NCBI GenBank assembly: GCA_947626475.1
Contig: CANQSK010000014.1
Span: 1-34,159, forward strand
Reading direction: 5' to 3'
DNA from: an uncultured Lachnospiraceae bacterium
Lineage (GTDB): Bacteria; Bacillota; Clostridia; Lachnospirales; Lachnospiraceae
DNA length: 34,159 bases
The notes beneath the pieces are model-generated. The model had not been told where the DNA came from, ran no database searches, and saw only the letters and a list, made by a program, of their open reading frames with translations. Positions 11,307-33,388 of this stretch are shown piece after piece (the stretch's first letter is position 1; each line of letters opens with the position of its first letter). The position numbers and the translations under genes were made by a program.

Positions 11307-11843
11307 ATGAAATGGTACGCGCTGAAGACCTGGGTCGGCAGGGAGGAAGAATTGGCTGAACTGATTCGAGAGGCTATCCCTCAGCAGTTGTATGAAGATT
11401 GTTTCGTCATCCTTCATGAACGTCTCTGGCGGCGGGAACGGAGGAATATCCTCCATAAGGAAGTGCTGTTTCCCGGATTCGTGTTCCTTACCTGCGGAGA
11501 ATCGGAGTCTTTCTTCCGGTATCTGGAGCAGGCCCCTGTGGTATCTCGAATGATGGCCGAGGGGGAATTCTCCATTTTTCCCATGGATGCGAAGGAAACA
11601 GATTTTCTGGAGCGGCTACAGGATCAGGAGCATGTGGTGAGGCTCTCCTATGTGTCCACGGACGGGATGGGGCATGTGTTCCATATAGAAGGTCCGTTGG
11701 CGCTCTGTCAGGAGAAGGTGGAGAAATATGGTTTTAAGAAGCGGTTTGCCATCATTCGCCTGCAGCTTATGCAGAAGGAGATAACGGCCGCATTGGGGAT
11801 TTATCTGAACGAGGACATAGGAGAGATGAGAGCGACGGGATGA
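11307..11843 (+). CDS. NusG-family specialised antiterminator, LoaP-like
   Basis: 178 residues from the ATG at 11307, preceded by GGAAGGGGGAGG; an upstream in-frame ATG at 11247 has no SD. The N-terminal NGN domain (about residues 1-105) begins WYALKTWVGREEELAEL and includes the LFPGFVFLTC core strand. The C-terminal part holds a KOW-like motif (DGMGHVFHIEGPL, then KRFAIIRLQLM). Length and the MKWYALKT start match NusG paralogues, of which LoaP is the characterised clostridial/bacillus type. These load on RNA polymerase and prevent termination within one long operon. Being the first gene of a ~22-kb run supports that job. It is not the housekeeping NusG, which sits with secE and ribosomal genes. 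Confidence 0.85.
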   Translation: MKWYALKTWVGREEELAELIREAIPQQLYEDCFVILHERLWRRERRNILHKEVLFPGFVFLTCGESESFFRYLEQAPVVSRMMAEGEFSIFPMDAKETDFLERLQDQEHVVRLSYVSTDGMGHVFHIEGPLALCQEKVEKYGFKKRFAIIRLQLMQKEITAALGIYLNEDIGEMRATG

Positions 11844-11881
11844 AGAAGAAAATGAATGCGAGATACGTGGAGAGATGATGG

Positions 11882-14050
11882 ATGACTGATATAAAACATG
11901 ATCTGGGGATAAGGGTCCTGAAGGTTCTGAACGCCGTATTGATAACAGTTCCATTTGCGGCCTGCTGGTATGGGTATTACTCACCAAGGACTTATTCTCC
12001 CTTCTATAATAAAGGGAACTGGGTAATGCTCGCTCTGTTCCTTACAGTCTACGTAATTTACGGAAAAGTCTATGATGTCTTTATGGTGTCATTGAGTCAT
12101 GCTACTGAACTGGTGTACAGCCAGAGTCTTGCCGCGGCGATCGCTGACGGCATTCTGTATGTGGTTACGTATCTGCTGACGAAACGCCTTCCCAGCCCCC
12201 TGCCATTGTTTCAGGCATTCTTGTTTCAGGTGTTCCTGGCTGTAATCTGGTCAGTATTGGCGAGAAAATGGTATTTTGCTGTCAATCCGCCCAAAAAGAC
12301 GGCAGTCATTTATGACAGACGCCCCGGTCTTGAGACCTTGGTCAGTGAATATGGGCTGGGGAAGAATTATGATGTCCGGGTGACAGCAAGCGCCGGGGAG
12401 TGTCTGGCCAATTTTGCAATGCTGGACGGCATGGAAACTGTATTTCTGAGCGGCGTGCACAGTCATGAGAGAAATATCATTCTAAAGCAGTGTATCAGCC
12501 GGGATATCGATATCTATGTGATACCCCGCATTGGAGATACCATCATGAGCGGCGCAAAGCAGATGCATATGCTGCATCTTCCCATCCTGAATGTTGGATG
12601 GCACAAGCCGCCCATAGAGTATCTAATCATAAAAAGAACGCTGGATATTGTCATAGCCGGGCTTATCCTGTTAATTTCCTCTCCTGTGATGCTGGTTACT
12701 GCGATTGCCATTCGGGCGACAGATGGAGGTCCTGTGTTTTACCGTCAGAAAAGACTTACGAAGGACGGACAGGAATTCCGGGTAATGAAGTTCCGTTCCA
12801 TGAAAGTGGACGCGGAAAAAGACGGAGTGGCAAGATTGTCTACCGGGAACAATGATGACCGGATTACGCCGGTAGGACGGATTATCCGGAAATGCAGGAT
12901 TGATGAGCTGCCGCAGCTTTTTAATATCCTTGCAGGTTCCATGAGCCTGGTGGGTCCCAGACCGGAACGTCCCGAGATAGCAGAACAATATATGAGGGAG
13001 CTGCCGGAGTTTGCCCTGAGACTGAAGGGAAAGGCCGGCCTGACCGGTTACGCCCAGGTATACGGTAAATATAATACTCAACCCTACGACAAGCTGGAAA
13101 TGGATCTGATGTATCTTGCCCACCCCAGTATTATCGAAGATCTGAGGATTATGTTCTCAACGGTGAAGATACTTTTTGTACCAGAAAGTACAGAAGGCGT
13201 TGCAATGGGGCAGATGACAGCCGGCTCAGAGGAAACAGCTGCGCTGTCGTTTGAAAATACTGAAGATGTTCTGTTAATAAATAAGAACTCGGAAAAATCT
13301 TCTTATCTGCCTTTGATGCGAGAGCTTATTTCCCGCGATCTGAAATTAAAATATCGCCGCAGCCTGCTTGGATATTGCTGGAGCCTTCTCAATCCGCTGC
13401 TGATGATGGCCATCATGACAATGGTATTCAGCTACATGTTCCGATGGGATGTGCCTAATTTCCCACTTTATCTTATCTGCGGCAACACTCTGTGGTCGTT
13501 CATGAGTGAAGCAACGAACCAGGCAATGTACAGTGTGCTGCAGAACGCGGCTCTTATCAAAAAGGTATATATTCCCAAATATATCTTTCCCATATCACGG
13601 GTGTTTTCCTGTTTCGTGATGATGACCTTCAGCCTGGCCGCAATCCTGATTACCATGCTGATCACTGCGACACCGCTGCACTGGACGCTGCTTTTGTTTC
13701 CGCTGCCACTGATCCTTTTACTTATTTTCAGCTGCGGTATTGGACTTATCTTGTCGTCGCTTAGCGTGTATTTCCGTGATGTGGTCCATCTGTATGGAGT
13801 ACTTACATTGGCGTGGATGTATACCACTCCCATTTTTTATCCGGTCTCAGCGGTTCCGCCGGAGGTCGCGTTTCTGATCAACATGAATCCGATGTATCAC
13901 TACATCACCTTTTTTCGGGATCTTGTGCTTTATGGTCAGCTTCCGCAGCTGGGAACGGTGCAGGCATGTCTTGCGGCCAGCGCTGTTAGCATGCTCATTG
14001 GCTTTCTCCTGTTCCGCGTTTTGCAGCGCAATTTCATCCTGTATATGTAA
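11882..14050 (+). CDS. Fusion: undecaprenyl-phosphate sugar-1-P transferase + ABC-2 glycan-export permease
   Basis: 722 residues in one uninterrupted frame. Residues ~1-130 are the N-terminal membrane helices of a WbaP/exopolysaccharide sugar transferase. At ~249-436 lies the catalytic domain: KRTLDIVIAGLILLISSP, PVFYRQKRLTKDGQEF, MKFRSMKVDAE, RKCRIDELPQLFNIL and GSMSLVGPRPERPE. This enzyme puts the first sugar phosphate on the lipid carrier. After a hydrophilic linker (~437-478), residues ~479-722 form a complete ABC-2 permease of the TagG/RfbA export type: RELISRDLKLKYRRSLLGYCW, SLLNPLLMM and a six-helix core ending NFILYM. These are normally separate proteins. A GGAGAG SD precedes the ATG at 11882; no clear SD precedes internal ATGs near the junction. 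The ATPase partner follows 18 bases later. Confidence 0.9.
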   Translation: MTDIKHDLGIRVLKVLNAVLITVPFAACWYGYYSPRTYSPFYNKGNWVMLALFLTVYVIYGKVYDVFMVSLSHATELVYSQSLAAAIADGILYVVTYLLTKRLPSPLPLFQAFLFQVFLAVIWSVLARKWYFAVNPPKKTAVIYDRRPGLETLVSEYGLGKNYDVRVTASAGECLANFAMLDGMETVFLSGVHSHERNIILKQCISRDIDIYVIPRIGDTIMSGAKQMHMLHLPILNVGWHKPPIEYLIIKRTLDIVIAGLILLISSPVMLVTAIAIRATDGGPVFYRQKRLTKDGQEFRVMKFRSMKVDAEKDGVARLSTGNNDDRITPVGRIIRKCRIDELPQLFNILAGSMSLVGPRPERPEIAEQYMRELPEFALRLKGKAGLTGYAQVYGKYNTQPYDKLEMDLMYLAHPSIIEDLRIMFSTVKILFVPESTEGVAMGQMTAGSEETAALSFENTEDVLLINKNSEKSSYLPLMRELISRDLKLKYRRSLLGYCWSLLNPLLMMAIMTMVFSYMFRWDVPNFPLYLICGNTLWSFMSEATNQAMYSVLQNAALIKKVYIPKYIFPISRVFSCFVMMTFSLAAILITMLITATPLHWTLLLFPLPLILLLIFSCGIGLILSSLSVYFRDVVHLYGVLTLAWMYTTPIFYPVSAVPPEVAFLINMNPMYHYITFFRDLVLYGQLPQLGTVQACLAASAVSMLIGFLLFRVLQRNFILYM

Positions 14051-14068: not shown

Positions 14069-14815
14069 ATGGCAGGCAAATATATCGTGGAAATCAACCA
14101 TGTATCGATGCGTTTCAATCTTGCGACGGAACGCACTGATACCCTCAAGGAATATTTTCTTAAGCTGATGAGCGGCAAGCTGCTTTTTAATGAGTTCTTT
14201 GCTCTGCGCGATATTAATCTCAAGATATTGCGGGGAGATTCCGTAGCGCTTATCGGCGTCAACGGAAGCGGCAAGAGTACACTGCTCAAGACCATTGCGG
14301 GAGTGATGTATCCTTCAGAAGGAAAAGTCATCCGACGAGGCAGTATCGCGCCGCTAATTGAGCTGGGAGCAGGCTTTGATATCGAGCTGACTGCAAGGGA
14401 GAATATCTTTCTGAACGGCGCCGTACTGGGTCATAACCGCACATTCATGAATGAACATTATAAGGAGATCATGGATTTCGCAGAGCTGTGGGAGTTTGAG
14501 GATGTGCCGGTGAAGAACTTTTCTTCCGGCATGGTGGCGCGGTTGGGCTTCAGCATCGCCACTGTGGTAAGCGCGGACATTCTGGTCGTGGACGAGATTC
14601 TGGCGGTCGGTGATGTGCGCTTTCAGGAGAAATGCCATCAGCGCATGGCAGAGATGCTGGCTGGCGGCACGACGCTGTTCTTCGTTTCACACGATATCAA
14701 GCAGGTACGCAAACTATGCAAAACTGCCATATGGCTAGATCACGGCGTGGTGCGCAAGGCAGGACCAAGTGGGAAAGTGTGCGACGCTTATCTGGAATTT
14801 TTGAACAATGTCTAA
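14069..14815 (+). CDS. ABC transporter ATPase for polysaccharide/teichoic-type export
   Basis: 248 residues. Walker A is GVNGSGKST (63-71), the signature loop FSSGM (151-155) replaces the usual LSGG, Walker B is ILVVDE (171-176), and the switch His is in FVSHD (~206-209). The LKEYFLKLMSGK N-terminal stretch, the FFALRDINLKI strand and the SSGM signature are typical of TagH/RfbB/KpsT-type exporters of lipid-linked glycans. It has no C-terminal carbohydrate-binding domain, so chain-end recognition as in O9a-type systems is unlikely. It would power the permease half of the preceding fusion protein at the cytoplasmic membrane. The GTGAAATACG region upstream supplies an AAGAGGTG SD. Confidence 0.93.
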   Translation: MAGKYIVEINHVSMRFNLATERTDTLKEYFLKLMSGKLLFNEFFALRDINLKILRGDSVALIGVNGSGKSTLLKTIAGVMYPSEGKVIRRGSIAPLIELGAGFDIELTARENIFLNGAVLGHNRTFMNEHYKEIMDFAELWEFEDVPVKNFSSGMVARLGFSIATVVSADILVVDEILAVGDVRFQEKCHQRMAEMLAGGTTLFFVSHDIKQVRKLCKTAIWLDHGVVRKAGPSGKVCDAYLEFLNNV

Positions 14816-14827: not shown

Positions 14828-15580
14828 GTGAAAGAAATCTTCACGGCGTATGGGATAACCGTTTACCGCTGGGTCATGCCGGCGATCCTTTCCAATATGT
14901 ATCTTGTGTTGGAAGGAGGACAGGCCCTTATCATAGATCCGCATATCTGTATGCCGGCGTTGGAACTCTTGCGTACCAATGGTGTAGAAAATGTGCTTGT
15001 ACTTCTCAGCCATGAACATTTTGATCATATTTCCGGCGTCAACTGGCTGCGGGAAAACCTGACTCAGGTAACTGTACTCTGCACTGAGGACTGCGCTGCT
15101 TTACTGGGCGATCCGGAAAAGAATATGGCGAAGTTTTATGAGGCGCTTTTTATGGATATGACGCCGGAACAGCGATTGGAAGGTATCAAGCTTCAGGATA
15201 CTGATTATCGCTGTATGGCGGATAAGACCTTTGCAGAAGAGTTACGATTTGACTGGAATGGACATATGGTGCACATGCAGCGGGCACCCGGTCACGCCCG
15301 CGGAGGAAATCTAATCTGGCTGGATGAAAAGATTCTCTTTACCGGTGATAACCTTGTAGAAGGAACCGGGGTCATCCTGCGTTTCCCGGGCGGAAGCAAG
15401 AGGGAATATGCAGCGATTACCCGGCCTATGTTGGAGACGGTGCAAGAGGATACTTTTGTTTTCCCTGGACATGGGGAACCAGGGGAGATGAGAGATTTGC
15501 GCCGGTATCTTGAACCATTCAAACGCAGCGCATCGAGAGCGCCGGGAGGGCTTCCGCATATGAAGGAGACAGAATTATGA
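14828..15580 (+). CDS. MBL-fold metallo-hydrolase
   Basis: 250 residues with a GTG start; AAGGAGGA is seven bases upstream. The metal-binding motif is SHEHFDHISG (His62, His64, Asp66, His67), with later ligands in APGHARGG, FTGDN and FPGHGEPG. This is a complete glyoxalase II-like zinc or iron hydrolase. Its substrate is not evident. In type II polyketide systems related MBL enzymes act as thioesterases on ACP-bound chains, so editing or release from one of the four ACPs is a reasonable inference, but lactone or phosphodiester hydrolysis is equally possible. Its stop overlaps the next start (ATGA), so it is translationally coupled to the hexapeptide transferase. Confidence 0.88.
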   Translation: MKEIFTAYGITVYRWVMPAILSNMYLVLEGGQALIIDPHICMPALELLRTNGVENVLVLLSHEHFDHISGVNWLRENLTQVTVLCTEDCAALLGDPEKNMAKFYEALFMDMTPEQRLEGIKLQDTDYRCMADKTFAEELRFDWNGHMVHMQRAPGHARGGNLIWLDEKILFTGDNLVEGTGVILRFPGGSKREYAAITRPMLETVQEDTFVFPGHGEPGEMRDLRRYLEPFKRSASRAPGGLPHMKETEL

Positions 15581-16224
15581 CTTTGGCCATCTATTGTGCC
15601 GGTGGACTTGGGAAAGAAATACTGGCGCTTGCAAGAGACTTTTCTCACTGGGATGACATTTTGCTTGTGGACGATGTGATTGATGCAGTTGAGTTGAACG
15701 GCGCTCGGATATTGCGCTTTTCAGAGGTAACGACGTTAGGTACTGATGTGGAATTTCTTATTGCCAACGGGGAGCCTATCAACCGAAAAGCATTGTATGA
15801 AAAAATCAAAGCAGCAGGATTTGGGATGGGAACTTTGATTTCGCCGTATGCGACCCTCTCGCCAGGTGTACAGGTTGGCGAAGGTTGTATTGTGTATGAT
15901 ACCATTCTATCAGTCGATGTGACAGTAAAAGAGAATGTTCTTATTAATACACATGTGATTGTTGGTCATGATGCTGTCATCGGGGCAAACAGCGTGCTTT
16001 CTGCTAATACTTTTATAGGTGGTAAGACTGAGTTGGGCGAATGCGTCTATATGGCTCCTGGATCCATGGCCAAAGACCGTATCACAGTAGGGGACAATGC
16101 TCTTGTTAGTTTGGGAGCGGTTCTATTGCGCAGTGTGCGCCCTGGCGCCATTATGGTAGGAAATCCAGCCCGTCATTTAGGACAGAATGAAGGCGGAAAG
16201 ATTTTTGGCATGTTTGATAAATAG
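15577..16224 (+). CDS. NeuD/PglD-like sugar O/N-acyltransferase (hexapeptide repeat)
   Basis: 215 residues. An N-terminal nucleotide-sugar-binding Rossmann-like part (LAIYCAGGLGKEILALARDF, LLVDD) is followed by left-handed beta-helix hexapeptides (LISPYATLSPGVQVGEGCIV, NVLINTHVIVGHDAVIGANSVL, GAVLLRSVRPGAIMVGNPAR). The HVIVGHD segment carries the catalytic His seen in NeuD and PglD. PglD-type enzymes acetylate the 4-amine of UDP-4-amino sugars, so this is one of four candidate enzymes for acylating the amino sugar made by the DegT protein at 30213. It overlaps the MBL gene by four bases. From about here the DNA becomes visibly more AT-rich. Confidence 0.88.
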   Translation: MTLAIYCAGGLGKEILALARDFSHWDDILLVDDVIDAVELNGARILRFSEVTTLGTDVEFLIANGEPINRKALYEKIKAAGFGMGTLISPYATLSPGVQVGEGCIVYDTILSVDVTVKENVLINTHVIVGHDAVIGANSVLSANTFIGGKTELGECVYMAPGSMAKDRITVGDNALVSLGAVLLRSVRPGAIMVGNPARHLGQNEGGKIFGMFDK

Positions 16225-16272
16225 GCTCTGCCTATTTTCAAAATATATCACATTTAAAAAGGAGTTTTAGTA

Positions 16273-16494
16273 ATGACTATTGAAGAGAAAATCGCCATGC
16301 TGGAAGAAATTATGGATCTTGATGAAGGCACACTCTCGGTGGATGACAATTTGGAAGATTATGAGGAGTGGGATTCTCTGAGTAAACTGTCTCTCATCGC
16401 TGAAGTAAAAAAACAGTTTGGAAAGGTGCTGAGTACCAATAGCATCCGCAGTTTCAAAACGGTGCAGGATATTTGTGACTATTTTGAAGACTGA
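16273..16494 (+). CDS. Acyl carrier protein 1
   Basis: A 73-residue stand-alone carrier. The phosphopantetheine attachment site is EEWDSLSKL with Ser35. Helix I is acidic, and the ending KTVQDICDYFED is typical of ACP helix IV. The W-D-S form is shared with ACP 2 at 20270, not with ACPs 3 and 4, so the locus contains two carrier subtypes. It is directly followed by a GNAT-like gene, which may accept its acyl group. No phosphopantetheinyl transferase is encoded in the window, so a housekeeping AcpS or another enzyme must activate it. AAAAAGGAG precedes the ATG. Confidence 0.92.
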   Translation: MTIEEKIAMLEEIMDLDEGTLSVDDNLEDYEEWDSLSKLSLIAEVKKQFGKVLSTNSIRSFKTVQDICDYFED

Positions 16495-16532
16495 ATAGGA
16501 AATGAAAATCCTTTTAAAGAAATGGGGGCACT

Positions 16533-17399
16533 ATGATTAAAGCTGAGAAAAGGCCAATTATGGAACTTCGCCAGGAAATGAATCGCATCCGTCGCTTTGG
16601 AGGATCTGTTATTACCAATTATTTCAACCAATGTAGCCAGTGTATCGAGCCGCTGTCTTGTTGGCTAGGAGAAGGTGCATTGGCATTTGGTTGGATGGAT
16701 GATGATATTTTGCGTATTTATTTTTATGCGATTAATACAGAGGAACTGGTGCAGATATTGGCAATGACACCGGTGGACAGTTGCATTGATTATCTTACGA
16801 AAGAGAGGGAAGAAAACACAGGATTATTTGAAAAAGCCGGATATGAACTTCTGTCGGAATATGGGCGTTATATGATAAAAACAAAGGAAGAAAAGACAGA
16901 AACGGAGTTAAAGGCGACTCAACTTAGAGAAACATTGGTTGTAGATGATACTATTCAAAATGAATTGTATCATGCAGGATATGGCGAACTTGCCGTGGAA
17001 GAGGACGCAGAAGAGCTTGACAGGATGCTGAGAGAGAAGTTTGATGCCCGTGATTCTCATTTTTACGATATGAAAACGTTGTGTGATCACATCCATAAGG
17101 GGTGGGTCTTTGTGGCAAAAGAAAACGATAAGATTATTGCTGCAAATCTAATTGAAATACAGGGGCGAAAATGTTATTGGGCCTACAGTTTTAATGATGG
17201 TCCAGTGGAAGTGTTTACGTCACTAATTGCTTTTTCGATTGGATCAATGGCACGTCAGGGATATAAGCACAACTATTGTTGGATGGATTTGAAAAATAAG
17301 CGAGCTATCCGATTTAACATCCTTTATAACGGATACAAATTTGATGATATGTATGACAGAATTTACATAAAAGGCAATAAATTAGCTGTGGGCAAGTAG
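16533..17399 (+). CDS. GNAT-like acyltransferase 1 (two-lobed, uncharacterised)
   Basis: 288 residues, not firmly assigned. The C-terminal ~110 residues read as a GNAT core: GWVFVAKENDKIIAANLIEIQGRKCYWAYSF matches the beta4/beta5 strands, followed by a helix and YCWMDLKNKRAIRFNILYNGYKF, like the GNAT C-terminal strand pair. The N-terminal ~130 residues resemble a degenerate second lobe ending LFEKAGYELLSEYGRYMIK. The same layout occurs in the protein at 25099 (INAGFEKYRKYLELE), so the two are probable paralogues. Placement just after ACP 1 suggests transfer of an acyl group from a carrier protein to an amine; this is inference. Confidence 0.6.
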   Translation: MIKAEKRPIMELRQEMNRIRRFGGSVITNYFNQCSQCIEPLSCWLGEGALAFGWMDDDILRIYFYAINTEELVQILAMTPVDSCIDYLTKEREENTGLFEKAGYELLSEYGRYMIKTKEEKTETELKATQLRETLVVDDTIQNELYHAGYGELAVEEDAEELDRMLREKFDARDSHFYDMKTLCDHIHKGWVFVAKENDKIIAANLIEIQGRKCYWAYSFNDGPVEVFTSLIAFSIGSMARQGYKHNYCWMDLKNKRAIRFNILYNGYKFDDMYDRIYIKGNKLAVGK

Positions 17400-17410
17400 G
17401 AGGACTATGT

Positions 17411-18148
17411 ATGCAGGAAAAAACGATCATTGTTACTGGTGCAACAAGCGGAATTGGGAAAGCAATGGCACAAAAGTTTTTTGCTGAGGGTGCTCGTATT
17501 ATCGCTGTAGGCAGAAACGAGGCTGCATTGCAGGAGATTTCCAAGGTAGGTGAAAACAATAGCGGCATTGTACCATTTGAGGCGGATCTTGCCCAGTTGG
17601 AGAATGTGCAGGCAATATTTGATTATTGTAAACAAAATGGTTGGAAGATTGATGGAATTGCGCATTGCGCAGGTATAACTCTTAATGTTCCACTTCGAGT
17701 AAATAATATCGAGGATACGGGACGTTTATTCCGTATCAATGTAGAGGCGCTGGCGGAAATATGTCGCATGGCGGCCAGCCGGCGCTATGTCAATGAGGGG
17801 GCATCCATTGTCGCCCTGTCATCTACGGCAGCGTTGGATGGTGGGAAGGGAATTGCAGTGTATTCTGCATCCAAGGCGGCAGTGAGTGTTCTGGTTAAAG
17901 CAGCTGCTAAAGAATTGATCGGGCGCAAAATTCGGGTAAACGCTATTGCTCCTGCAATGGTACGTACACGCATGTACGAGGAAACAATTCGAGAACTTCC
18001 AGATTTGAAAGAATCCTTGCAATGGTCACAACCGTTAGGCTTGATAGAACCAGAAAACATTGCTGAATTAGCTAGCTATTTGATGTCAGAAAAAGCCAGG
18101 TATATTACTGGAACAACGGTTGTTGTCGGTGCGGGATTTATTGTTTAG
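17411..18148 (+). CDS. SDR family 3-oxoacyl reductase 1 (FabG-like)
   Basis: 245 residues of the classical short-chain dehydrogenase family: NAD(P)-binding TGATSGIG (9-16), HCAG (~85-88), catalytic Ser138 in IVALSS, and YSASK with Tyr151 and Lys155. It likely reduces a beta-ketoacyl-ACP made by the adjacent KAS III enzymes to the beta-hydroxy form. The cofactor arm GRNEAALQEI has an Arg after the second strand, compatible with NADPH. The C-terminus TGTTVVVGAGF departs from the usual FabG ending. It closely resembles the second SDR at 20521 (shared EGASIVALSS-like stretch), suggesting duplication. The SD AGGAGG overlaps the end of the upstream gene. Confidence 0.9.
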   Translation: MQEKTIIVTGATSGIGKAMAQKFFAEGARIIAVGRNEAALQEISKVGENNSGIVPFEADLAQLENVQAIFDYCKQNGWKIDGIAHCAGITLNVPLRVNNIEDTGRLFRINVEALAEICRMAASRRYVNEGASIVALSSTAALDGGKGIAVYSASKAAVSVLVKAAAKELIGRKIRVNAIAPAMVRTRMYEETIRELPDLKESLQWSQPLGLIEPENIAELASYLMSEKARYITGTTVVVGAGFIV

Positions 18149-18172
18149 TTACTAGAAAGAAGAGGACTATAA

Positions 18173-20269: not shown

Positions 20270-20488
20270 ATGACTGAGCAAGAAAAACTTATTGAAATTG
20301 CAGATATTCTGGAAATGGAACCTGAAGAGTTGACTCCAAATACTGTTTTGACTGAGCTGGATACATGGGATTCTGTTGCAGTATTATCTTTCATTTCTGT
20401 AATGAATGATAATTTTAACAAATTTCCCAATGCCCGTGAAATTCGAGCCTATGAAACAATTGGAGATCTTATGGATGCAATGTGCTAA
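20270..20488 (+). CDS. Acyl carrier protein 2
   Basis: 72 residues. The attachment site is LDTWDSVAVL with Ser35, at the same position and with the same W-D-S context as ACP 1, so the two are a subtype pair. The helical, acidic ACP layout is complete and ends YETIGDLMDAMC. It lies between KAS III 2 and SDR 2, the placement expected for a carrier holding the chain during condensation and ketoreduction. AAGGGGTG precedes the ATG. Confidence 0.92.
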   Translation: MTEQEKLIEIADILEMEPEELTPNTVLTELDTWDSVAVLSFISVMNDNFNKFPNAREIRAYETIGDLMDAMC

Positions 20489-21228: not shown

Positions 21229-21269
21229 AAATATATTATGATATTATTTTGGACGGAGGTAGATTGCAA

Positions 21270-25048: not shown

Positions 25049-25098
25049 TGTGATTGTAATTAAGCACATTTTGTTCTGGAAAGGGATTGAAAACAAAA

Positions 25099-25947: not shown

Positions 25948-25986
25948 ATATATAAATTCATCTGCACGGAATAGGGAGGTTTCTAT

Positions 25987-27453
25987 ATGCTGACAGTTGT
26001 TGAAAAGCTATTTGAGAACGCTAAACGGAATCCCGACAAGCTGGCAGTAATTTTTGAAAACGAGGAAGTTACATACTGTCAATTGAAAGACTCAACTGTA
26101 CGGTTAGCGAATTGGTTCAAGACACAGGGAATAGAAAAAGGAGATCGTATCGTGGTACAGGCTGCTCATTGTAAATGGTATATTGTCGCCTGCTTTGCTT
26201 CACATTTATGTGGCGCCATCTTTGTACCTGTTGAGAAGACTTTGACGGAGAAAACATTGGAAGATACTGTGAAAAGGTTGAAGGCTAAGGCTGTAGTATC
26301 CAGGCTTGCTCCATTGGCGCATATATCACTGAATTATAGCGATATAGATGCGAAACTGGCAGGTGTGGAAGAAGAGCAACCGTGGCAATTTCCGGAATTG
26401 GAAATGGTTGCCAATATTATGTTAACATCTGGGACCACTGGTATTCCTAAAGGTGCTATCTTGACACAGAAGAATCTTGCTGCTAATTGTTTAGTCAGAC
26501 TTTCGGAAATAGAGATATCTGAGAGTGATGTTGGGATTACATTTATACCTTTGAATCATGTCGCTTGTGAGCGGGTATGGGAAACAGCAATATATACTGG
26601 AAGCACATATATTATGCTGGATGGTATGATAAAGATGAACAGATTCTATGAGTTTATTGATAAATATAATGTAAATACATTTAATATGCCGCCTTCAGGC
26701 ATCGCATCTCTGGAGTATTTATCTCAAAGTAAACTTTATGAATATGCTGAACAAATAGATTATATTTGTATTCAGTCAGCTCCAATACAGGAGCCTCAAC
26801 GGCGCTATTTAAAAGCGATGCTACCGAAAAGCAAATTGTTTTATGTTTACGGCTCAACAGAAACAGGAACTGCAACAATACATCGTTTGGATGAAGATCA
26901 GAAAGAGATCCGTTGCGTGGGTCGCCCATGTGAGGGTGTAGATATAAGAATTTGGGATAACAATATGCAAGATGTTGCGTATGGTGTTCAGGGACGTGTA
27001 GCTATACGAGATGATATGAATTGTAAAGGTTATTGGGGCATGCCAGAAGTGTTGAAAGATGTTTATTATAACGAATTTTTTTTGACTAATGACCTGGGTT
27101 ACTTAGATGAGGATGGATTTTTATATATTCTCGGGAGGATCGACGATGTTATTAATGTTGGCGGTTTGAAATTGCTGCCCTCTGAGGTTGAAAAAGCAAC
27201 GATGGAAATAACAGGAATTGATGAGTGTCTCTGTTATGACGTACCCAACGCAGTCACAGGCAGAGCGGTAAAACTGCTCGTCAGGTTAGCAGGAGATAGT
27301 AGATTGAGTGCAAGTGACATTCGTGCTGCGCTTGCAGTTAAATTGGATAATTATAAAGTGCCGTCAGTGATTGAATTTGTTCCAGAAATTATGAAGAATC
27401 CAAACGGAAAGCCAGACAGGAAGTACTATTATTCAAAAGATGGTGGACATTAA
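25987..27453 (+). CDS. AMP-forming acyl-CoA/acyl-ACP ligase
   Basis: 488 residues. P-loop MLTSGTTGIPKGAILTQ (~145-161), A5 YVYGSTETGTA, A7 LTNDLGYLDEDGFLYILGR, A8 DDVINVGGLKLLPSEVE and the catalytic lysine in NPNGKPDRKYY are present. The motif set is that of fatty acid/aryl-acid CoA ligases (ANL family) rather than DltA, and it lacks the FD-type amino-binding site, so a free carboxylic acid is the likely substrate. With ACP 4 encoded 35 bases downstream it may charge that carrier directly, supplying the starter unit for a KAS III enzyme. AGGGAGG precedes the ATG. Gene composition is still AT-rich here. Confidence 0.88.
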   Translation: MLTVVEKLFENAKRNPDKLAVIFENEEVTYCQLKDSTVRLANWFKTQGIEKGDRIVVQAAHCKWYIVACFASHLCGAIFVPVEKTLTEKTLEDTVKRLKAKAVVSRLAPLAHISLNYSDIDAKLAGVEEEQPWQFPELEMVANIMLTSGTTGIPKGAILTQKNLAANCLVRLSEIEISESDVGITFIPLNHVACERVWETAIYTGSTYIMLDGMIKMNRFYEFIDKYNVNTFNMPPSGIASLEYLSQSKLYEYAEQIDYICIQSAPIQEPQRRYLKAMLPKSKLFYVYGSTETGTATIHRLDEDQKEIRCVGRPCEGVDIRIWDNNMQDVAYGVQGRVAIRDDMNCKGYWGMPEVLKDVYYNEFFLTNDLGYLDEDGFLYILGRIDDVINVGGLKLLPSEVEKATMEITGIDECLCYDVPNAVTGRAVKLLVRLAGDSRLSASDIRAALAVKLDNYKVPSVIEFVPEIMKNPNGKPDRKYYYSKDGGH

Positions 27454-27488
27454 AACAGATGAATTTCATAAATAATAAGGAGTAAAAG

Positions 27489-27722
27489 ATGGAGCAAAGA
27501 ATACGGGAACTGTTGAGTAAGGGAATACCGGAGATTGATTTTTGTTCGTCGGAAGAACTTGTAGATGACGGGATACTCGATTCGCTGTCACTGATGACGG
27601 TTATTGGACTGTTGAATAAAGAATTTGACATCGAAATCTCGTTTAATGAACTGACAGAGGATAATTTTAATTCTATCAAAGGCATGGCAGCTATGATAAC
27701 AAGGCTGCAAAAGGAGAAATAA
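27489..27722 (+). CDS. Acyl carrier protein 4
   Basis: 77 residues, attachment site VDDGILDSLSLMTV with Ser32, the same DG-LDS subtype and serine position as ACP 3. It follows the acyl ligase by 35 bases and precedes the malonyltransferase by only two, so it may carry the ligase-derived starter, the malonyl extender, or both. AATAAGGAG precedes the ATG. This is the last gene of the AT-rich block; base composition changes sharply in the next gene. Confidence 0.92.
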   Translation: MEQRIRELLSKGIPEIDFCSSEELVDDGILDSLSLMTVIGLLNKEFDIEISFNELTEDNFNSIKGMAAMITRLQKEK

Positions 27723-27724
27723 TT

Positions 27725-28639
27725 ATGAAGAACATTGCAATCATTTTCCCTGGCCAGGGCGCGCAGATCGCGGGCATGGCCAGGGATTTTTATGACAACT
27801 ACCCATGCAGCAAGGCTGTATTTGATATTGCCTCGCAGGCCTGCGGACTGGACCTGGCGGAACTTTGCTTTACGGAAAATGACCGTCTCGATAAAACGGA
27901 ATACACCCAGGTTGCTCTGCTTACGGCAGAATTGGCCATGATGGCTGCCGTACGTGAGACAGGCGTGGCGCCTGCTGTCACGGCAGGACAGAGCCTTGGC
28001 GAATATGCGGCGCTGGTTACTGCCGGGTATTTAGATTTGACTGACGCGGTGCGTCTGGTGAGGGAGCGGGGCATCCTGATGCAGAATGCTGTACCGGTAG
28101 GTAAAGGCGCAATGGTGGCGGTGGTTGGTCTGACCGCTGATGCGGTAGAGGAATTCTGCCGCAGGGCAGACGGGGTGGTGGAAGTCTCCAACTACAACTC
28201 ACAGAAACAGACTGTGGTTTCGGGAGAACGTGAGGCTGTCCTTCAGGTCAAGCAGATGGCAGAAGATGCCCATGCCCGTCTGGCAGTAGAGCTTAATGTG
28301 AGTATTCCGTCTCACTCGCCTTTGATGCGTCCGGCGGCCGAAGCGCTGCAAAAAACACTGGCTGGCGTAACGCTGCATACAGGCAGTATCCCTTATGTTG
28401 CCAATGTCAGTGCGGAATATGTTACAGATGCTGCCGCAATTAAGGAATTACTGGTACATCAGATGTACAGCGCTGTGCGTTGGGAACAGAGTATACGCGC
28501 TATGCAGGCGACTGGTGTGGAACTGTTTTTAGAGGTAGGCCCGGGCGAGACGTTGACAAAGATGAACAAAAAGATCGACCGCACGCTGACAGCTCGGAAT
28601 ATCGCTTCTGTTGAAGATCTGCTGGCGCTGCAGGTCTGA
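27725..28639 (+). CDS. Malonyl-CoA:ACP transacylase (FabD-like)
   Basis: 304 residues. The nucleophile motif is GQSLGEYAAL with Ser90, the carboxylate-binding Arg is in VRERGILMQ (~115), and catalytic His197 lies in SIPSHSPLM. The VEVSNYNSQKQTVVSGE and LEVGPGETLTKM segments are also standard FabD. It transfers malonyl, or possibly methylmalonyl, from CoA to a carrier protein, giving the extender for the KAS III enzymes. The Arg supports a carboxylated substrate. It starts two bases after ACP 4, so it is coupled to it. The gene is markedly GC-richer than the upstream block. It appears to be a dedicated second copy, since no other fab genes surround it. Confidence 0.93.
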   Translation: MKNIAIIFPGQGAQIAGMARDFYDNYPCSKAVFDIASQACGLDLAELCFTENDRLDKTEYTQVALLTAELAMMAAVRETGVAPAVTAGQSLGEYAALVTAGYLDLTDAVRLVRERGILMQNAVPVGKGAMVAVVGLTADAVEEFCRRADGVVEVSNYNSQKQTVVSGEREAVLQVKQMAEDAHARLAVELNVSIPSHSPLMRPAAEALQKTLAGVTLHTGSIPYVANVSAEYVTDAAAIKELLVHQMYSAVRWEQSIRAMQATGVELFLEVGPGETLTKMNKKIDRTLTARNIASVEDLLALQV

Positions 28640-28674
28640 ATGCACGGCACAAAGGAAGGAGAGGATATACCTAC

Positions 28675-30216
28675 ATGTGGCAGGATAAGATAGAACAGCT
28701 TAAAGCCCTGCGGGAAAAGGCCGCGGCCGGAGGAGGTCCGGCACGGGTAGAAAAGCAGCATCAGAGCGGCAAGCTGACGGCGCGGGAGCGCATCGATTTG
28801 TTGTTGGATCCGGGCAGCTTTGTTGAGGTCAACGGACTGATGGAATCCCGAATCGATGATTTTGGGCTGGACAAGCGCCGATTTCCCGGAGATGGCGTCG
28901 TCACCGGATACGGAACAGTGGATGGGCGTACAGTGTGCGTTGCGTCAGAGGATTTTACTGTTATTGGCGGTACATTGGGTGAATACCATTCGTTGAAGAT
29001 CTGTGGGATACAGGACATGGCCATGTCAATGCGGGTGCCGTTTATCTCAATTAATGACAGCGGCGGAGCCCGTATTGAAGAAGGTATCTCAGCACTGAGC
29101 GGTTACAGTGGTATGTTCCTGCGCAACACGCAGGCTTCCGGCGTTATTCCGCAGATTGCGGTCATCGTGGGACCGTGTTCAGGGGGTGCGTGCTATGCCC
29201 CTGCCATATGTGATTTTATTTTTCTTGTTAGAAACGTCAGTAAGATGTTTATCACCGGTCCAAAGGTGGTCCAGTCGGTGTTAGGTGAGGTAACGACGGT
29301 TGAAGATTTGGGCGGCGCGGAGATACACGCACACAAAAGCGGTGTCAGTCACTTTCTCTATGATGAGGAGGAGAGTTGTTTTGCCGGTGTGCGGAGACTT
29401 CTTTCTTATTTGCCGCAGAACAATCGGGAACAACCACCGGTTGCAGCTGCCAAACAGGTGGACGGCCCAGCTGATCTGAAGGCTATCGTTCCGGACAACG
29501 CCCGCCGCCCCTATGACGTGCATGAGGTTATTCGCGCTATTATAGATAACGGCAGCTTTATGGAAGTGCAGCAGCAGTTTGCTCCCAATGCGGTGGTCGG
29601 ATTCGGCCGTATGGATGGTGAGACGGTTGGATTTGTTGCCAATCAGCCCGCTTACTTAGGCGGTTCACTGGATTGTGACAGTTCAGATAAGATTGCCCGT
29701 TTCATCCGCTTCTGTGACTGCTTTAATATACCACTGGTTTCTCTTGTCGATGTCCCGGCGTTTATGCCGGGGAGGGATCAGGAACACAAAGGCATCATCC
29801 GGCACGGAGCCAAGATCCTGTACGCTTATTCCGAAGCGACAGTACCTAAGATTTCGCTTATTATGCGCAAGGCTTATGGCGGGGCATACATCGCCATGAA
29901 CAGCAAAAATATGGGCGCGGATATTGTGTATGCCTGGCCCATCGCTGAGATTGCGGTGATGGGCGCAGAGGGTGCTATTAATATATTGTGGAAGAAAGAC
30001 ATGGCGAAGGCGGAAGATCCGCAGGCCTTTATCAGAGAGAAAACAGCTGAATTTGAGGATAAGTTTATGAATCCTTTCATTGCGGCCAAGCGAGGATATG
30101 TGGATGAAATCATTCTGCCGGAGGAGACTCGTCCGCGTATTCGTGCCGCGTTGGATATGCTCAAAACGAAGAAAGCGGAGCTGCCGGCTAAAAAGCATGG
30201 TAACATTCCGCTGTGA
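28675..30216 (+). CDS. Acyl-CoA carboxyltransferase / methylmalonyl-CoA decarboxylase alpha-like subunit
   Basis: 513 residues of the biotin-dependent carboxyltransferase family. The two crotonase-like halves carry the oxyanion Gly pairs INDSGGARIEEG (~126-137), GPCSGGACYAP (~167-176) and MRKAYGGAYIAMNSK (~397-411). GGAYI has Ile at the position that is Asp in propionyl-CoA carboxylases and influences acyl-CoA choice, so acetyl-CoA or a broad preference is plausible; MmdA-type decarboxylases share this residue. No biotin carboxylase, BCCP or membrane decarboxylase subunit is in the window, so partners must come from elsewhere. Beside a FabD-like gene, making malonyl or methylmalonyl extender is the simplest role. 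It ends overlapping the next GTG start. Confidence 0.88.
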   Translation: MWQDKIEQLKALREKAAAGGGPARVEKQHQSGKLTARERIDLLLDPGSFVEVNGLMESRIDDFGLDKRRFPGDGVVTGYGTVDGRTVCVASEDFTVIGGTLGEYHSLKICGIQDMAMSMRVPFISINDSGGARIEEGISALSGYSGMFLRNTQASGVIPQIAVIVGPCSGGACYAPAICDFIFLVRNVSKMFITGPKVVQSVLGEVTTVEDLGGAEIHAHKSGVSHFLYDEEESCFAGVRRLLSYLPQNNREQPPVAAAKQVDGPADLKAIVPDNARRPYDVHEVIRAIIDNGSFMEVQQQFAPNAVVGFGRMDGETVGFVANQPAYLGGSLDCDSSDKIARFIRFCDCFNIPLVSLVDVPAFMPGRDQEHKGIIRHGAKILYAYSEATVPKISLIMRKAYGGAYIAMNSKNMGADIVYAWPIAEIAVMGAEGAINILWKKDMAKAEDPQAFIREKTAEFEDKFMNPFIAAKRGYVDEIILPEETRPRIRAALDMLKTKKAELPAKKHGNIPL

Positions 30217-31331
30217 GGATTATGGGACAGGAAATTTTTGTGACGCGGCCATCGCTGCCGCCTTTTGAAGAATATGCCGCTATGCTGCGGCCTTTGTGGG
30301 AGAGCCGGTGGCTGACGAACATGGGAACATATCATGATCAGCTGGAACGGGAACTAAAGGATTATCTGCAGGTACCGGAGCTTTCCTTGTTCTGTAATGG
30401 GCATCTGGCATTGGAAGGTGCTTTGCAGATAGCGGGACTGTCTGGCGAAGTCATTACTACGCCCTATACTTTTGCTTCTACAGTACATGCCATTGTGCGG
30501 CAGGGGCTCACTCCGGTCCTGTGCGACGTCAAGCCGGAGGATGGTACGCTGGACGAAACACAGCTGGAGAGTCTTATAACCGAAAGAACTTCTGCTATTG
30601 TTCCGGTGCATGTGTACGGACATTGCTGTAATGTAGAAGCAATCGGCAGTATCGCTGAAAAATATGGCTTGAAAGTGATTTATGATGCTGCTCACGCTTT
30701 CGGAGTGACCTTGGGCGGACGGGGAATCGGGACTTTCGGAGATATGTCCATGTTCAGCTTTCACGCAACTAAGATATTCAACACCGTTGAAGGAGGGGCT
30801 GTTGCTTTTCATAACCCTGCCCTGCGGACGAAATTTCGTGCCATCAAGAACTTTGGTATTCAGGACGAAGAAACGATTACCGAGATTGGCGGCAATGCCA
30901 AGCTCAATGAACTGCAGGCGGCCATGGGCTTGTGTAATCTGCGTTATGTTGACCGGGATATCGCTCGCAGCAGGGTATTGAGTGAACGTTATCACGAACG
31001 GTTGTCCTGCGTTTCCGGCATACGCTTTTTCACTCCTCGCGCGGATGCTGCCCCTAATTATGCTTATATGCCTGTGTGTATTGAGCCGGAAACTTTTGGC
31101 GCAGACCGTGACGCCGTGCAGGCGGCGCTGCGTGAGCATGGAGTTTATCTGCGTAAGTATTTTTATCCTATCGTCAGTGAGTATGCGTGCTACCGGCAGC
31201 GTTTCGCAGGATGTTGTCTGCCGCAGGCGGAACGCTTGTCCCGCCAGGTGCTGACACTGCCGATTTATGCCGATTTGGAGCTGCAGGATGTGGACCGCAT
31301 CTGTGATTTGATTCTGCAGGTTGCCCATTGA
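30213..31331 (+). CDS. DegT/DnrJ/EryC1/StrS sugar aminotransferase (VioA/QdtB-like)
   Basis: 372 residues from the GTG at 30213, which overlaps the previous stop by four bases; the in-frame ATG at 30222 is an equally possible start. PLP-enzyme landmarks: FCNGHLALEGAL, TPYTFASTVHAI, Asp158 in IYDAAHAFGV and Lys187 in SFHATKIFNTVEGGA. The TVEGGA context is typical of enzymes acting on dTDP- or UDP-keto-6-deoxyhexoses such as VioA (4-amino product) or QdtB/FdtB (3-amino product). It makes the amino group that the acyltransferases of this operon would acylate. No dTDP-glucose synthesis genes are here, so its keto-sugar comes from enzymes encoded elsewhere. Confidence 0.9.
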   Translation: MRIMGQEIFVTRPSLPPFEEYAAMLRPLWESRWLTNMGTYHDQLERELKDYLQVPELSLFCNGHLALEGALQIAGLSGEVITTPYTFASTVHAIVRQGLTPVLCDVKPEDGTLDETQLESLITERTSAIVPVHVYGHCCNVEAIGSIAEKYGLKVIYDAAHAFGVTLGGRGIGTFGDMSMFSFHATKIFNTVEGGAVAFHNPALRTKFRAIKNFGIQDEETITEIGGNAKLNELQAAMGLCNLRYVDRDIARSRVLSERYHERLSCVSGIRFFTPRADAAPNYAYMPVCIEPETFGADRDAVQAALREHGVYLRKYFYPIVSEYACYRQRFAGCCLPQAERLSRQVLTLPIYADLELQDVDRICDLILQVAH

Positions 31332-31356
31332 GACAACGGAAAGGAGTTTAGATTCG

Positions 31357-32211
31357 ATGATAGATGTCTGTTCCTTGGATATGAGCGTCAAGCCCTTGGT
31401 TTCTATCTGGTGCCTGACCTATAATTTTGCCCCTTTTATCCGACAGGCGATGGAGGGATTTTTGGATCAGGAAACGGATTTTCCCTATGAGATTTTGATT
31501 CATGACGATTTTTCTACTGATGATACGGTCGCCGTTTTGCGGGAATATCAGCAGAAGTACCCAGATAAGATACGGCTGCTGCTGGAAGAGGCAAATCAGG
31601 GGACGAAGCATCTGCACCGTTTCCTCGACAAGGTGCGCGGCGATTATGTGGCGATCTGTGAAGGCGACGATTACTGGACGGATCCGCATAAACTGCAGAA
31701 ACAACTGGGTTTTCTGCGCGAACACCCTGAATATGCGATGGCCTTTACTGCCTGTGATATCGAGGAAAATGGTGTTATCGTGGATGTCAGAGAACCATAT
31801 AAAAAGGTTAAGACTGTCTCAGCAGGGACCGTTATTGTTGTTGGGGGATTTCTCTGCCCGTCTGCCTCTCTTGTTATAAAAAAGGAACATCTGTATACTC
31901 TTCCGGATTACTATTTCCAGGCTGATACAGCAGATTATCCCATGCAGATCCATATGGCGTCCTGCGGCAAAGTATATTACCTGCCTGATCATACTTGTGT
32001 GTACCGGCGCGGGCGGGCTGGTTCCTGGTCCACAAATGTTAAAGCCAGCCAGGAGAGGTATCTTGCTCACTATAAGAATGAGGTGGCCTGGCTGAATGCG
32101 GTAAATACTGCAACAAACGGCCGCTACAGGCTGGCATTGGCCGTGCGGAAGATGATATATCGTATGGGACCGGTCCGAAACTGGTACCGGCTTCACAAGT
32201 CGTCAAAGTAA
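31357..32211 (+). CDS. Family 2 glycosyltransferase
   Basis: 284 residues from the ATG at 31357, chosen because AAAGGAG at 31340-31346 fits; the frame is open further upstream into the preceding gene. GT-A fold motifs: PLVSIWCLTYNFAPFI, YEILIHDDFSTDDTV and VAICEGDDYWTDPHKL, whose DD pair binds nucleotide sugar and metal. It adds one sugar to the lipid-linked oligosaccharide on the cytoplasmic face. It is the only glycosyltransferase in the operon besides the initiating transferase, so the repeat unit is either short or completed by enzymes outside the window. The product of the DegT/acyl pathway is a good candidate donor, by adjacency. Confidence 0.92.
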   Translation: MIDVCSLDMSVKPLVSIWCLTYNFAPFIRQAMEGFLDQETDFPYEILIHDDFSTDDTVAVLREYQQKYPDKIRLLLEEANQGTKHLHRFLDKVRGDYVAICEGDDYWTDPHKLQKQLGFLREHPEYAMAFTACDIEENGVIVDVREPYKKVKTVSAGTVIVVGGFLCPSASLVIKKEHLYTLPDYYFQADTADYPMQIHMASCGKVYYLPDHTCVYRRGRAGSWSTNVKASQERYLAHYKNEVAWLNAVNTATNGRYRLALAVRKMIYRMGPVRNWYRLHKSSK

Positions 32212-32245
32212 TATCTGGTAATAAATGGATGCAGGGAGATTCAGC

Positions 32246-33388
32246 ATGAATCACTTGGGGTCTTATATTTTATATTTAAGTGTATTTGCAGTATCCATTC
32301 TTGGAAGCTGGTGTTACAGCCGGGATCAGAAGATATCTTTTCGGAAAAAATTTCTGTATTTTGTTCTTATAGCGGGTCCTGTTATCCTGCTTCAGGGTTT
32401 GAGATACAATGTAGGTACGGATTACCAGAGTTATGCGGAGTTGAGTGAAGGGTTTGCCCTAGGCGATGCGGAATGCATTTCCAGGTTTGAGAAAGAGCCT
32501 CTTTTTATCTTATTCTCAAAAACGGCGTATTTGGTTGGGCAGAGCAGATATTTTTTCTTCCTGGCGGATGCGGTTGTGATGAACACCATTCTGTTTCTGG
32601 CATTTGACTACTATAGAAAAGAAGTTAGCCTGCCGTTATTGTACCTGCTGTATTATTCGTGGTGTTTTGGATATTTTCTGAATATAGAGCGCCAGGGTCT
32701 TGCCGTTATTATATTATGGTTTTCAATCCGATATGTGAAAGAGAGAAAACCGATTCGATTTCTGCTCTGTATTTGTCTTGCGTTCCTGTTTCACAATACA
32801 TCTGTTGTAGGACTCATATTATATCCAGCCTATTGGTTTTTAAGCAAAAAAGATACAAGAGTCATGAAGTTTCTGCTGATAACGATAAGCTTTTTTGTTC
32901 CGGCTCTGTTCGGAGTAAGTATAGCTTTTTTGCAAAATTATGTGCCCATTTTTTCAAAATATGTAAGTTATCTAACTCAGGTATTGCAAATAAAAATTGA
33001 AGCAAACTGGGTTTTGAACTGGACTTACATGGTATGTGTATCCATAGTTCTGGTGCCTTTTTTGCGCATGCTGCGTCAGTCTGAAGTTGGTATGGAATGG
33101 CTGCTCTTTTTATGTTTCTGGCAGCTGTCATCATATCTGCTGAGTGCTTATATTTCATCGGGATATCGCATGGCATTCTATTTTGAGATAGGGATTATGC
33201 TGTGTTATGCGTATATTGTGCCAAGACTAAAAAGCCGATTTAATCGTGTGGCTTTGAATAGTTTTATATTAGGCGCATGCCTGTTTCATTTCACCTATAA
33301 ATTCTATATCAGAGGAAAAGCGGAAATCTTTCCGTATCAGACGGTGCTGTCAGTTATCAGGAACGTACAAAAATATTTTGCTGTATAA
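32246..33388 (+). CDS. EpsG-family polysaccharide polymerase/membrane protein
   Basis: 380 residues from the ATG at 32246, with AGGGAG at 32233-32238; the in-frame ATG at 32225 would lie upstream of that SD. It is a polytopic membrane protein of roughly ten helices. The EpsG signatures are LQGLRYNVGTDYQSY (an RxxVGTDY loop) and FGYFLNIERQGLAV. EpsG proteins resemble Wzy polymerases that join repeat units outside the membrane. Finding one in an operon whose exporter is an ABC type rather than a Wzx flippase is unusual. It is the last gene of the run; a terminator-like hairpin follows within ten bases. Confidence 0.88.
   Translation: MNHLGSYILYLSVFAVSILGSWCYSRDQKISFRKKFLYFVLIAGPVILLQGLRYNVGTDYQSYAELSEGFALGDAECISRFEKEPLFILFSKTAYLVGQSRYFFFLADAVVMNTILFLAFDYYRKEVSLPLLYLLYYSWCFGYFLNIERQGLAVIILWFSIRYVKERKPIRFLLCICLAFLFHNTSVVGLILYPAYWFLSKKDTRVMKFLLITISFFVPALFGVSIAFLQNYVPIFSKYVSYLTQVLQIKIEANWVLNWTYMVCVSIVLVPFLRMLRQSEVGMEWLLFLCFWQLSSYLLSAYISSGYRMAFYFEIGIMLCYAYIVPRLKSRFNRVALNSFILGACLFHFTYKFYIRGKAEIFPYQTVLSVIRNVQKYFAV

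Follow-up and report, generated by a model that had tools for sequence, protein, structure and literature searches.

A clostridial operon predicted to build a dedicated acyl group, possibly amino-acid-primed, and to place it on an exported surface glycan

The O-polysaccharide of Flavobacterium psychrophilum carries an R group, visible by nuclear magnetic resonance, that is linked to the genes wfpC-wfpG: two 3-ketoacyl-acyl carrier protein (ACP) synthases, an ACP, a 3-ketoacyl-ACP reductase and a PglD-type acyltransferase, together predicted to put a 3,5-dihydroxyhexanoyl group on UDP-Qui2NAc4N (PMC6519341). In Pseudomonas syringae, the viosamine island vioA/vioB/vioS/vioR/acp combines a sugar aminotransferase, the VioB acyltransferase, a 3-ketoacyl-ACP synthase III (KAS III), a reductase and an ACP; the flagellin glycan bears N-(3-hydroxy-1-oxobutyl)viosamine, and vioR and vioM mutants were analyzed by mass spectrometry (PMC3927599). 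The flagellin islands of Aeromonas group II and of enterobacteria include ACP, 3-oxoacyl-ACP reductase, AMP-dependent synthetase/CoA ligase, LuxE and LuxC genes among their glycan genes, those of enterobacteria with formyltransferases and acetyltransferases as well; the authors propose a liposugar made from fatty acids, and the accessible parts of these reports name no KAS III (PMC7874193, PMC4875605). Here we describe an operon at positions 11307-33388 of a 34,159-nucleotide stretch of DNA from an uncultured Lachnospiraceae bacterium (contig CANQSK010000014.1, assembly GCA_947626475.1). This stretch, hereafter the window, is an entire contig of a 3.1-Mb draft genome. We put a probability of roughly one half on the reading that the operon serves both synthesis and export of a surface glycan, a 4-amino-4,6-dideoxyhexose of which bears an acyl group built by the same operon.

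The operon comprises 24 genes (g01-g24; Table 1), all on the plus strand with intact frames and separated by 23 gaps of -11 to 48 bases. Within g02-g24, glycan genes stand at both ends and enclose 18 acyl-related genes (g04-g21). We assigned families with Pfam and NCBIfam scans, reading each score against the cut-off of its model. A preliminary description of this DNA had reported a co-directional run of 22 genes with gaps mostly under 50 bases; the single strand and the short gaps hold, but the gene count is 24. The parts it named were found where it had placed them, and its inventory is borne out by family matches and intact motifs: four ACPs, three KAS III, two ketoreductases, two ligases, FabD, a carboxyltransferase and four acyltransferases, the last being g05, g13 and two members of a tandem-GNAT family, g07 and g17. 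The sugar-phosphate transferase and ABC exporter that it saw at one end are both present, with the transferase and the permease fused in a single open reading frame (ORF). The Cys-His-Asn triad of condensing KAS III enzymes is present in g09, g10 and g16, the phosphopantetheine DS site in all four ACPs (g06, g11, g15 and g19), and YxxxK in both short-chain dehydrogenases/reductases (SDRs; YSASK in g08 and YTTSK in g12), which match the broad adh_short_C2 model. FabD (g20) retains GQSLG and PSHS, and g04 retains HxHxDH. With its own ACPs, KAS III and SDRs, motifs intact, the locus has the makeup of the viosamine and R-group loci. In Pfam scans, none of the 24 genes came out as a probable dehydratase or enoyl reductase.

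The locus differs from these systems in scale and in composition. The F. psychrophilum genes number five against the 18 acyl-related genes here and serve a Gram-negative Wzx/Wzy O-antigen; no adenylation enzyme is named among them in the available text, and the words “adenylation” and “AMP” are absent from the main text (PMC6519341). The seven-gene P. syringae island has a single KAS III and a single ACP, its accessible gene list holds no adenylation enzyme or GNAT, and it modifies a flagellin glycan, whereas an ABC-exported polymer is predicted here (PMC3927599). The preliminary description had known of no locus of such composition. Glycan loci with ACP, KAS and reductase genes are described (PMC6519341, PMC3927599), so that only the predicted amino-acid-priming core (g14, g15 and g16) is unusual; for this part, no glycan locus with a KAS III line primed by adenylation appeared among the titles listed from an open-licence library.

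On the glycan side, the DegT-type aminotransferase g22 has as its nearest solved structure the DesI-type enzyme 2po3 (221 bits), its C-4 specificity being assigned by similarity, and the hexapeptide acyltransferase g05, of VioB/PglD type, has as its nearest VioB (7txp, 84 bits); g05 scores 145.4 bits against the NeuD model TIGR03570, whose cut-off is 160.8. Elsewhere in the genome, RmlB is matched over cut-off twice and two phosphopantetheinyl transferases are encoded. These matches agree with the earlier view of the locus as a much larger relative of viosamine-type loci. Given the likeness of g22 to DesI and of g05 to VioB, the probable site of acylation is the 4-amine of a 4-amino-4,6-dideoxyhexose, by analogy with the viosamine and F. 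psychrophilum R-group loci, and a dTDP-4-amino-4,6-dideoxyhexose acylated at N-4 would be the most economical reading from the Vio and Wfp loci. Campylobacter, too, has fabH2/acpP genes, and the locus may bear a resemblance to Cj1298-Cj1308.

The ABC-2 permease that forms the C-terminal half of g02 and its cognate ATPase g03 correspond to export of the TagGH/Wzm-Wzt type. No second fusion spanning both halves of g02 was found among the matches listed for 299 genomes of the family, window aside. On another contig of the same genome (C134), a separate 462-residue transferase that is 84% identical to the first half of g02 lies beside a NusG-like gene; the fusion seen in g02 may therefore be a one-off. 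We call g01 “LoaP-like” because its NCBIfam LoaP score of 90.1 bits falls below the cut-off of 125. No LoaP-type UNCG hairpin (stem of at least 3) occurs in 10733-11306 or 11844-11881, a terminator-like hairpin lies at 11257-11275, leader folding is no better than in shuffles (z -0.38), and Rfam gives no match at gathering thresholds within the window. The 23 terminator-like sites in 16000-34159, against 14.9 (sd 4.1) in shuffles, are too weak a signal to rely on.

The unusual core begins with g14. Its closest solved structure is LgrA (6mfy, 340.5 bits), it carries the adenylation motifs TSGSTGTPK and YGPTE of a nonribosomal peptide synthetase (NRPS)-type enzyme, and against the AA-adenyl-dom model (TIGR01733) it stays under the cut-off of 317.4. 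Motif anchoring to PheA numbering gives the specificity code DHYFWALVDK, from which no confident substrate could be read. The first code residue is Asp and the last Lys in 72 of 72 aligned adenylation enzymes (71 from the loci described below, after short or weakly matching ones were dropped, plus g14); we take these to correspond to the amine-binding Asp235 and to Lys517 of PheA.

We used g16 as bait among 392 genomes of the order, including that of the window. Matches above 40% identity occurred in five other genomes, whose neighborhoods have in common homologs of g14, g15, g16, an SDR and an ACP, several of them with g13- and g07-type genes. In Lachnospiraceae bacterium ABMPRH_140_2 (genome G468), the 47-kb contig C21 (JAAWAR010000102.1) contains reciprocal best hits for 17 of the 24 genes, at 35-72% identity and within positions 10638-34470. 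The order there is a family 2 glycosyltransferase, ABC permease, ATPase, carboxyltransferase, DegT aminotransferase, an unassigned gene, metallo-beta-lactamase-fold protein, PglD, ACP1, KAS1 and GNAT, followed by SDRs, KAS2, ACP2, SDR, AMP1, ACP3, SDR, KAS3 and a GNAT-type gene, with FabD further on. The permease is not fused to a priming transferase. Reciprocal best hits are lacking for g01, g13, g17, g18, g19, g23 and g24, and the g17 position is taken by a g17-type protein that scores 26.6 bits against the family profile. Since g18 and g19 are among these, we regard AMP2 and ACP4 as accessory and AMP1, ACP3 and KAS3 (g14, g15 and g16) as the core.

Beyond the order, we scanned an alignment of seven KAS3 sequences (A1), in which C119, H268 and N299 of g16 are invariant, against contigs of 84,980 species and recovered 203 KAS3 relatives. 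All locus fractions given here refer to the best 80 of these 203, with flanks of at most 10 kb (some loci are short). By taxonomy as deposited, the 80 loci come from Lachnospiraceae, other Clostridia, Paenibacillus, Neobacillus, Trichococcus, many Bacteroidota, Geothrix, Verrucomicrobiota and a Fibrimonadales metagenome-assembled genome; named strains with the core include Bacteroides luti, Eudoraea adriatica, Maribacter polysiphoniae and Paenibacillus cellulosilyticus. At a coverage of at least 60%, homologs of g15 are found in 74 loci and of g14 in 70, followed by g06 (47), g08 (44), g13 (21), g04 (20), g05 (17), g21 (8), g20 (7) and g03 (3). In 57 of the 80 loci, KAS3 has homologs of both g14 and g15 no more than three genes away. 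Gene order, on which the preliminary description had staked its proposal, is thus conserved, both in the 17 of 24 genes on the second Lachnospiraceae contig and in this smaller core.

The association also exceeds chance. Within 1.5 kb of KAS3 we counted g14 homologs in 61/80 loci, g15 homologs in 66/80, the GNAT family in 44/80, a formyltransferase in 16/80 and FabD in 0/80, or 56/72, 59/72, 39/72 and 15/72 for the first four when only loci with full 1.5-kb flanks are kept. The corresponding counts around control KAS III genes, 21 low-identity loci of the same order (L022-L042) that are not all proven housekeeping FabH, are 0/21 for each of the four and 15/21 for FabD. KAS3 comes directly after ACP3 in 57 cases, and ACP3 directly after AMP1 in 33. 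Four Bacteroidota loci (L071, L080, L092 and L117) carry a compact AMP1-ACP3-KAS3-ACP-PglD cassette, L117 with two PglD genes. Upstream of AMP1 in L071 (7221-7709), a conserved protein of about 160 residues has no Pfam match; equivalents occur in the Bacteroidota cassettes of L072, L080, L092, L115 and L117.

A quick tree of 144 KAS III rows, which has long branches, places g16 in a 17-row set containing only KAS3 (SH-aLRT 99), g10 in a 12-row KAS2-only set (SH-aLRT 97) and g09 in a 7-row KAS1-only set (SH-aLRT 95). On this tree, KAS3 requires two changes, KAS1 seven, KAS2 six and the controls five; KAS1 and KAS2, labeled by best match, are not clean clades as wholes. Among Lachnospiraceae, the KAS1 homologs of L057, L059 and G213 measure about 540-560 residues and have an extra C-terminal region absent from the 341-residue g09. 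We also considered whether the genome lacks another FabH, as KAS III was matched only in the operon. Contig C61 ends about 1.5 kb from the FabD gene of the type II fatty acid synthesis cluster, so a FabH may be merely missing from the assembly, and we do not use this absence as evidence.

The tandem-GNAT family supplies a candidate for a step between adenylation and condensation. Neither g07 nor g17 has a Pfam or NCBIfam match of its own, and g17 has two GNAT folds in one chain. A jackhmmer search from g07 gave 63 matches in ORFs of the 80 loci, fragments counted; of 50 aligned members, 26 have an Acetyltransf_1 match with E no greater than 1, and g07 is not one of them. A single-sequence search with g17 gave no match in 144 other genomes or in plasmids, which reflects sensitivity rather than uniqueness, as the family profile catches g17. 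Within five genes of KAS3, a GNAT is found in 50/80 loci, a formyltransferase in 16/80 and at least one of the two in 61/80. When a lone gene separates g14 and g15 homologs, it is a GNAT in nine cases and a formyltransferase in six. In one of the 80 loci, that of Bacteroides luti (L081, 8892-9992), Formyl_trans_N is fused to a PP-binding carrier (ACP3). Linear gramicidin synthetase LgrA follows a formylation-adenylation-carrier logic; besides being the closest solved relative of g14, it has a formyltransferase beside an adenylation/carrier pair, as does the L081 fusion. LgrA is a multimodular peptide synthetase, whereas here the proteins are separate and a KAS III follows.

From these patterns we tentatively propose, with somewhat less confidence than we give the glycan reading itself, an unrecognized modular biosynthetic class that extends across Bacillota, Bacteroidota and other phyla. 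In its members, a stand-alone NRPS-type adenylation enzyme and its carrier would offer an N-acylated or N-formylated amino acid to a dedicated KAS III as primer. The resulting amino-acid-primed ketide acids (gamma-amino-beta-hydroxy acids and longer amino-polyol acids) would be products of glycan loci and would be attached to surface sugars, both of polysaccharides and of flagellins.

The pathway that we infer for the window, in each of its reactions, the order of its steps, its product and the acyl group itself, builds on family assignments, active-site motifs, linkage and synteny, together with the chemistry established for these families. RmlB, encoded elsewhere, would make dTDP-4-keto-6-deoxyglucose, which g22 would aminate. 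An alpha-amino acid would be activated by g14 and loaded on g15, and its amine acylated on the carrier by g17, perhaps also g07, a slot that a formyltransferase may fill in some relatives. With g21 and g20 supplying malonyl-ACP on ACP1 or ACP2, g16 would condense malonyl-ACP with the primed g15; g09 and g10 may extend the chain further, and g08 and g12 may reduce its ketones. As the operon encodes no dehydratase or enoyl reductase, the hydroxyls would stay, like those of the 3,5-dihydroxyhexanoyl group in F. psychrophilum (PMC6519341). Transfer of the chain onto the sugar nucleotide, at its 4-amine, would fall to g05; a second acyl group or a starter would come from g13 and g18/g19, and g04 would remove stalled chains. 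Finally, g23, g24 and the priming half of g02 would assemble the glycan on lipid for export by the permease half of g02 with g03, while g01 would keep transcription running through the operon.

Several observations weigh against this model. The g03 homologs of the three loci that have one are only 22-23% identical and no g02 homolog was counted, which leaves the exporter outside the widespread core: of the two, only the acyl genes are broadly distributed. The core lies beside flagellin, FliS and FliD in G405 and beside NeuB and a cytidylyltransferase in G423; from these two relatives, those checked, we conclude that the acceptor sugar varies, and the differing settings point to a portable cassette. 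Loci L086, L113 and L123 lack a g14 homolog near KAS3 and carry a g18-type ligase with a long protein instead. Neither a GNAT nor a formyltransferase lies within five genes of KAS3 in 19/80 loci, 14 of which are not flagged as cut short near KAS3. Among these 14 is L056, the closest relative, which was counted without a GNAT because its KAS3-adjacent GNAT is under the profile cut-off and its g07 homolog lies further off. Ordinary GNATs are only distantly related to g07 and g17, and g05, g14, g21 and g22 fall under the NCBIfam cut-offs of their best models. The g14 code matches no code known to us, serine being echoed only by its LVDK tail, nor do we know of a characterized KAS III for which an aminoacyl carrier serves as primer. 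Formyltransferases and GNATs, moreover, also act directly on amino sugars.

In the flavobacterial locus L113, the long protein (7384-9867) is a LuxE-LuxC fusion, an echo of the LuxE and LuxC genes of the flagellin islands; L086 and L123 have the same gene sizes and order, the scan having been run on L113.

Extension of the amino acid by KAS3 is the weak link of the model, and two separate acyl groups are its main rival. In that alternative, the KAS III, reductases and ACP1/ACP2 would build an acetyl-primed 3-hydroxyacyl or 3,5-dihydroxyacyl group, g14/g15 with a GNAT or the AAC(3)-like enzyme would aminoacylate the sugar directly, and KAS3 would leave the amino acid alone. The window does hold two types of sugar acyltransferase (g05 and g13), GNATs and formyltransferases can act on sugars as noted above, and an Acetyltransf_6 protein of L071 (22.0 bits, exactly at the cut-off) is a second possible acyltransferase there. 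The first of the two groups also has precedent in two loci (PMC3927599, PMC6519341). Against the rival as a whole, ACP3 adjoins KAS3 more often than AMP1 adjoins ACP3, AMP1, ACP3 and KAS3 share one compact cassette in the four Bacteroidota loci, and the L081 fusion joins the formyltransferase to ACP3. We consider this rival unlikely, though it survives better than any other.

Appreciably less probable is that the acyl genes yield a small molecule, either free or lipid-linked, such as a secreted hybrid peptide-ketide, with the glycan genes as mere neighbors. The LoaP-like g01 speaks for it, as the LoaP of B. velezensis controls the difficidin and macrolactin operons (PMC12691694). So does base composition: the GC content is 0.35-0.45 in the genes of 16273-27722 against 0.52-0.54 in g20-g22, suggesting a separately acquired block. 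With 0.46-0.50 in g02-g05, 0.39 in g24 and 0.53 in the upstream 10.7 kb, the acyl block looks like a mosaic insertion. On the other side, no gap in the operon exceeds 48 bases, a sugar aminotransferase, a VioB-like acyltransferase and an exporter accompany the acyl genes in a second species, and the two relatives checked adjoin flagellin or NeuB genes. Slightly less probable again is a CerJ-like KAS3 that passes the amino acid to the sugar without forming a carbon-carbon bond: KAS III acyltransferases do exist and the window holds two further KAS III, but the condensing triad, whose Asn is known to be changed in transfer enzymes of this type, is invariant in the seven aligned KAS3 sequences, and FabD and a carboxyltransferase are in the operon.

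Two regions flank the operon. Directly 3' of it, a frame at 33495-34159 that runs off the contig end has Rpn/PDDEXK_2 transposase-like similarity, below both cut-offs. Just upstream, the separate region 7334-10732 carries genes for a sugar-type ABC permease, GDPD, a glycerol-3-phosphate-responsive antiterminator and an FAA-hydrolase-family protein.

Table 1. Genes of the operon, with positions in the window and the matches behind each assignment.
Gene	Assignment	Position	Strand	Basis
g01	LoaP-like NusG paralog, predicted processive antiterminator of the operon	11307..11843	+	Pfam NusG 29.6 bits; NCBIfam LoaP 90.1 bits
g02	Polyprenyl sugar-phosphate transferase fused to ABC-2 permease, 722 aa	11882..14050	+	Bac_transf 251-432, ABC2_membrane 480-681
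g03	TagH-type exporter ATPase	14069..14815	+	Pfam, NCBIfam; no C-terminal glycan-binding domain matched
g04	Metallo-beta-lactamase-fold hydrolase, possible editing thioesterase	14828..15580	+	Lactamase_B; HxHxDH
g05	NeuD/PglD/VioB hexapeptide acyltransferase, predicted to acylate amino sugar	15577..16224	+	PglD_N, Hexapep over cut-off
g06	ACP1	16273..16494	+	PP-binding; DS motif
g07	Tandem-GNAT-family protein	16533..17399	+	Family profile; without Pfam/NCBIfam match
g08	SDR ketoreductase 1	17411..18148	+	Pfam; YSASK
g09	KAS III, clade KAS1	18173..19198	+	Pfam; Cys-His-Asn; tree
g10	KAS III, clade KAS2	19238..20245	+	Pfam; Cys-His-Asn; tree
g11	ACP2	20270..20488	+	PP-binding; DS motif
g12	SDR ketoreductase 2	20521..21228	+	Pfam; YTTSK
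g13	AAC(3)-like N-acyltransferase	21249..22130	+	Antibiotic_NAT
g14	Stand-alone amino-acid adenylation enzyme (AMP1)	22167..23684	+	TIGR01733 301.2 bits; code DHYFWALVDK
g15	DltC-like carrier (ACP3), partner of g14	23702..23935	+	NCBIfam 30.9 bits, below cut-off 68
g16	KAS III, clade KAS3, predicted to extend aminoacyl carrier	23981..25048	+	Pfam; C119, H268, N299
g17	Tandem GNAT, predicted N-acylation of aminoacyl carrier	25087..25947	+	
g18	Acyl-CoA-ligase-type adenylating enzyme (AMP2)	25987..27453	+	Pfam, NCBIfam
g19	ACP4	27489..27722	+	PP-binding; DS motif
g20	FabD, malonyl-ACP supply	27725..28639	+	TIGR00128 298.5 bits, over cut-off 260.9
g21	MmdA/PccB-type carboxyltransferase, predicted malonyl-CoA supply	28675..30216	+	Carboxyl_trans; TIGR01117 768.7 bits, cut-off 998.8
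g22	DesI-like sugar 4-aminotransferase	30213..31331	+	DegT 311.9 bits; TIGR04427 303.9 bits, cut-off 650
g23	Family 2 glycosyltransferase	31321..32211	+	Pfam
g24	EpsG-family membrane protein	32225..33388	+	Pfam

Because the core amounts to four to five small proteins and occurs in named strains, the central claim is directly testable in vitro. If it is true, a KAS III accepts an N-masked aminoacyl carrier, and annotators would gain a rule that separates such loci from fatty-acid synthesis genes. The surface glycans of some clostridia and Bacteroidota would then carry small hybrid peptide-ketide acids that a structural analysis confined to sugars would miss.

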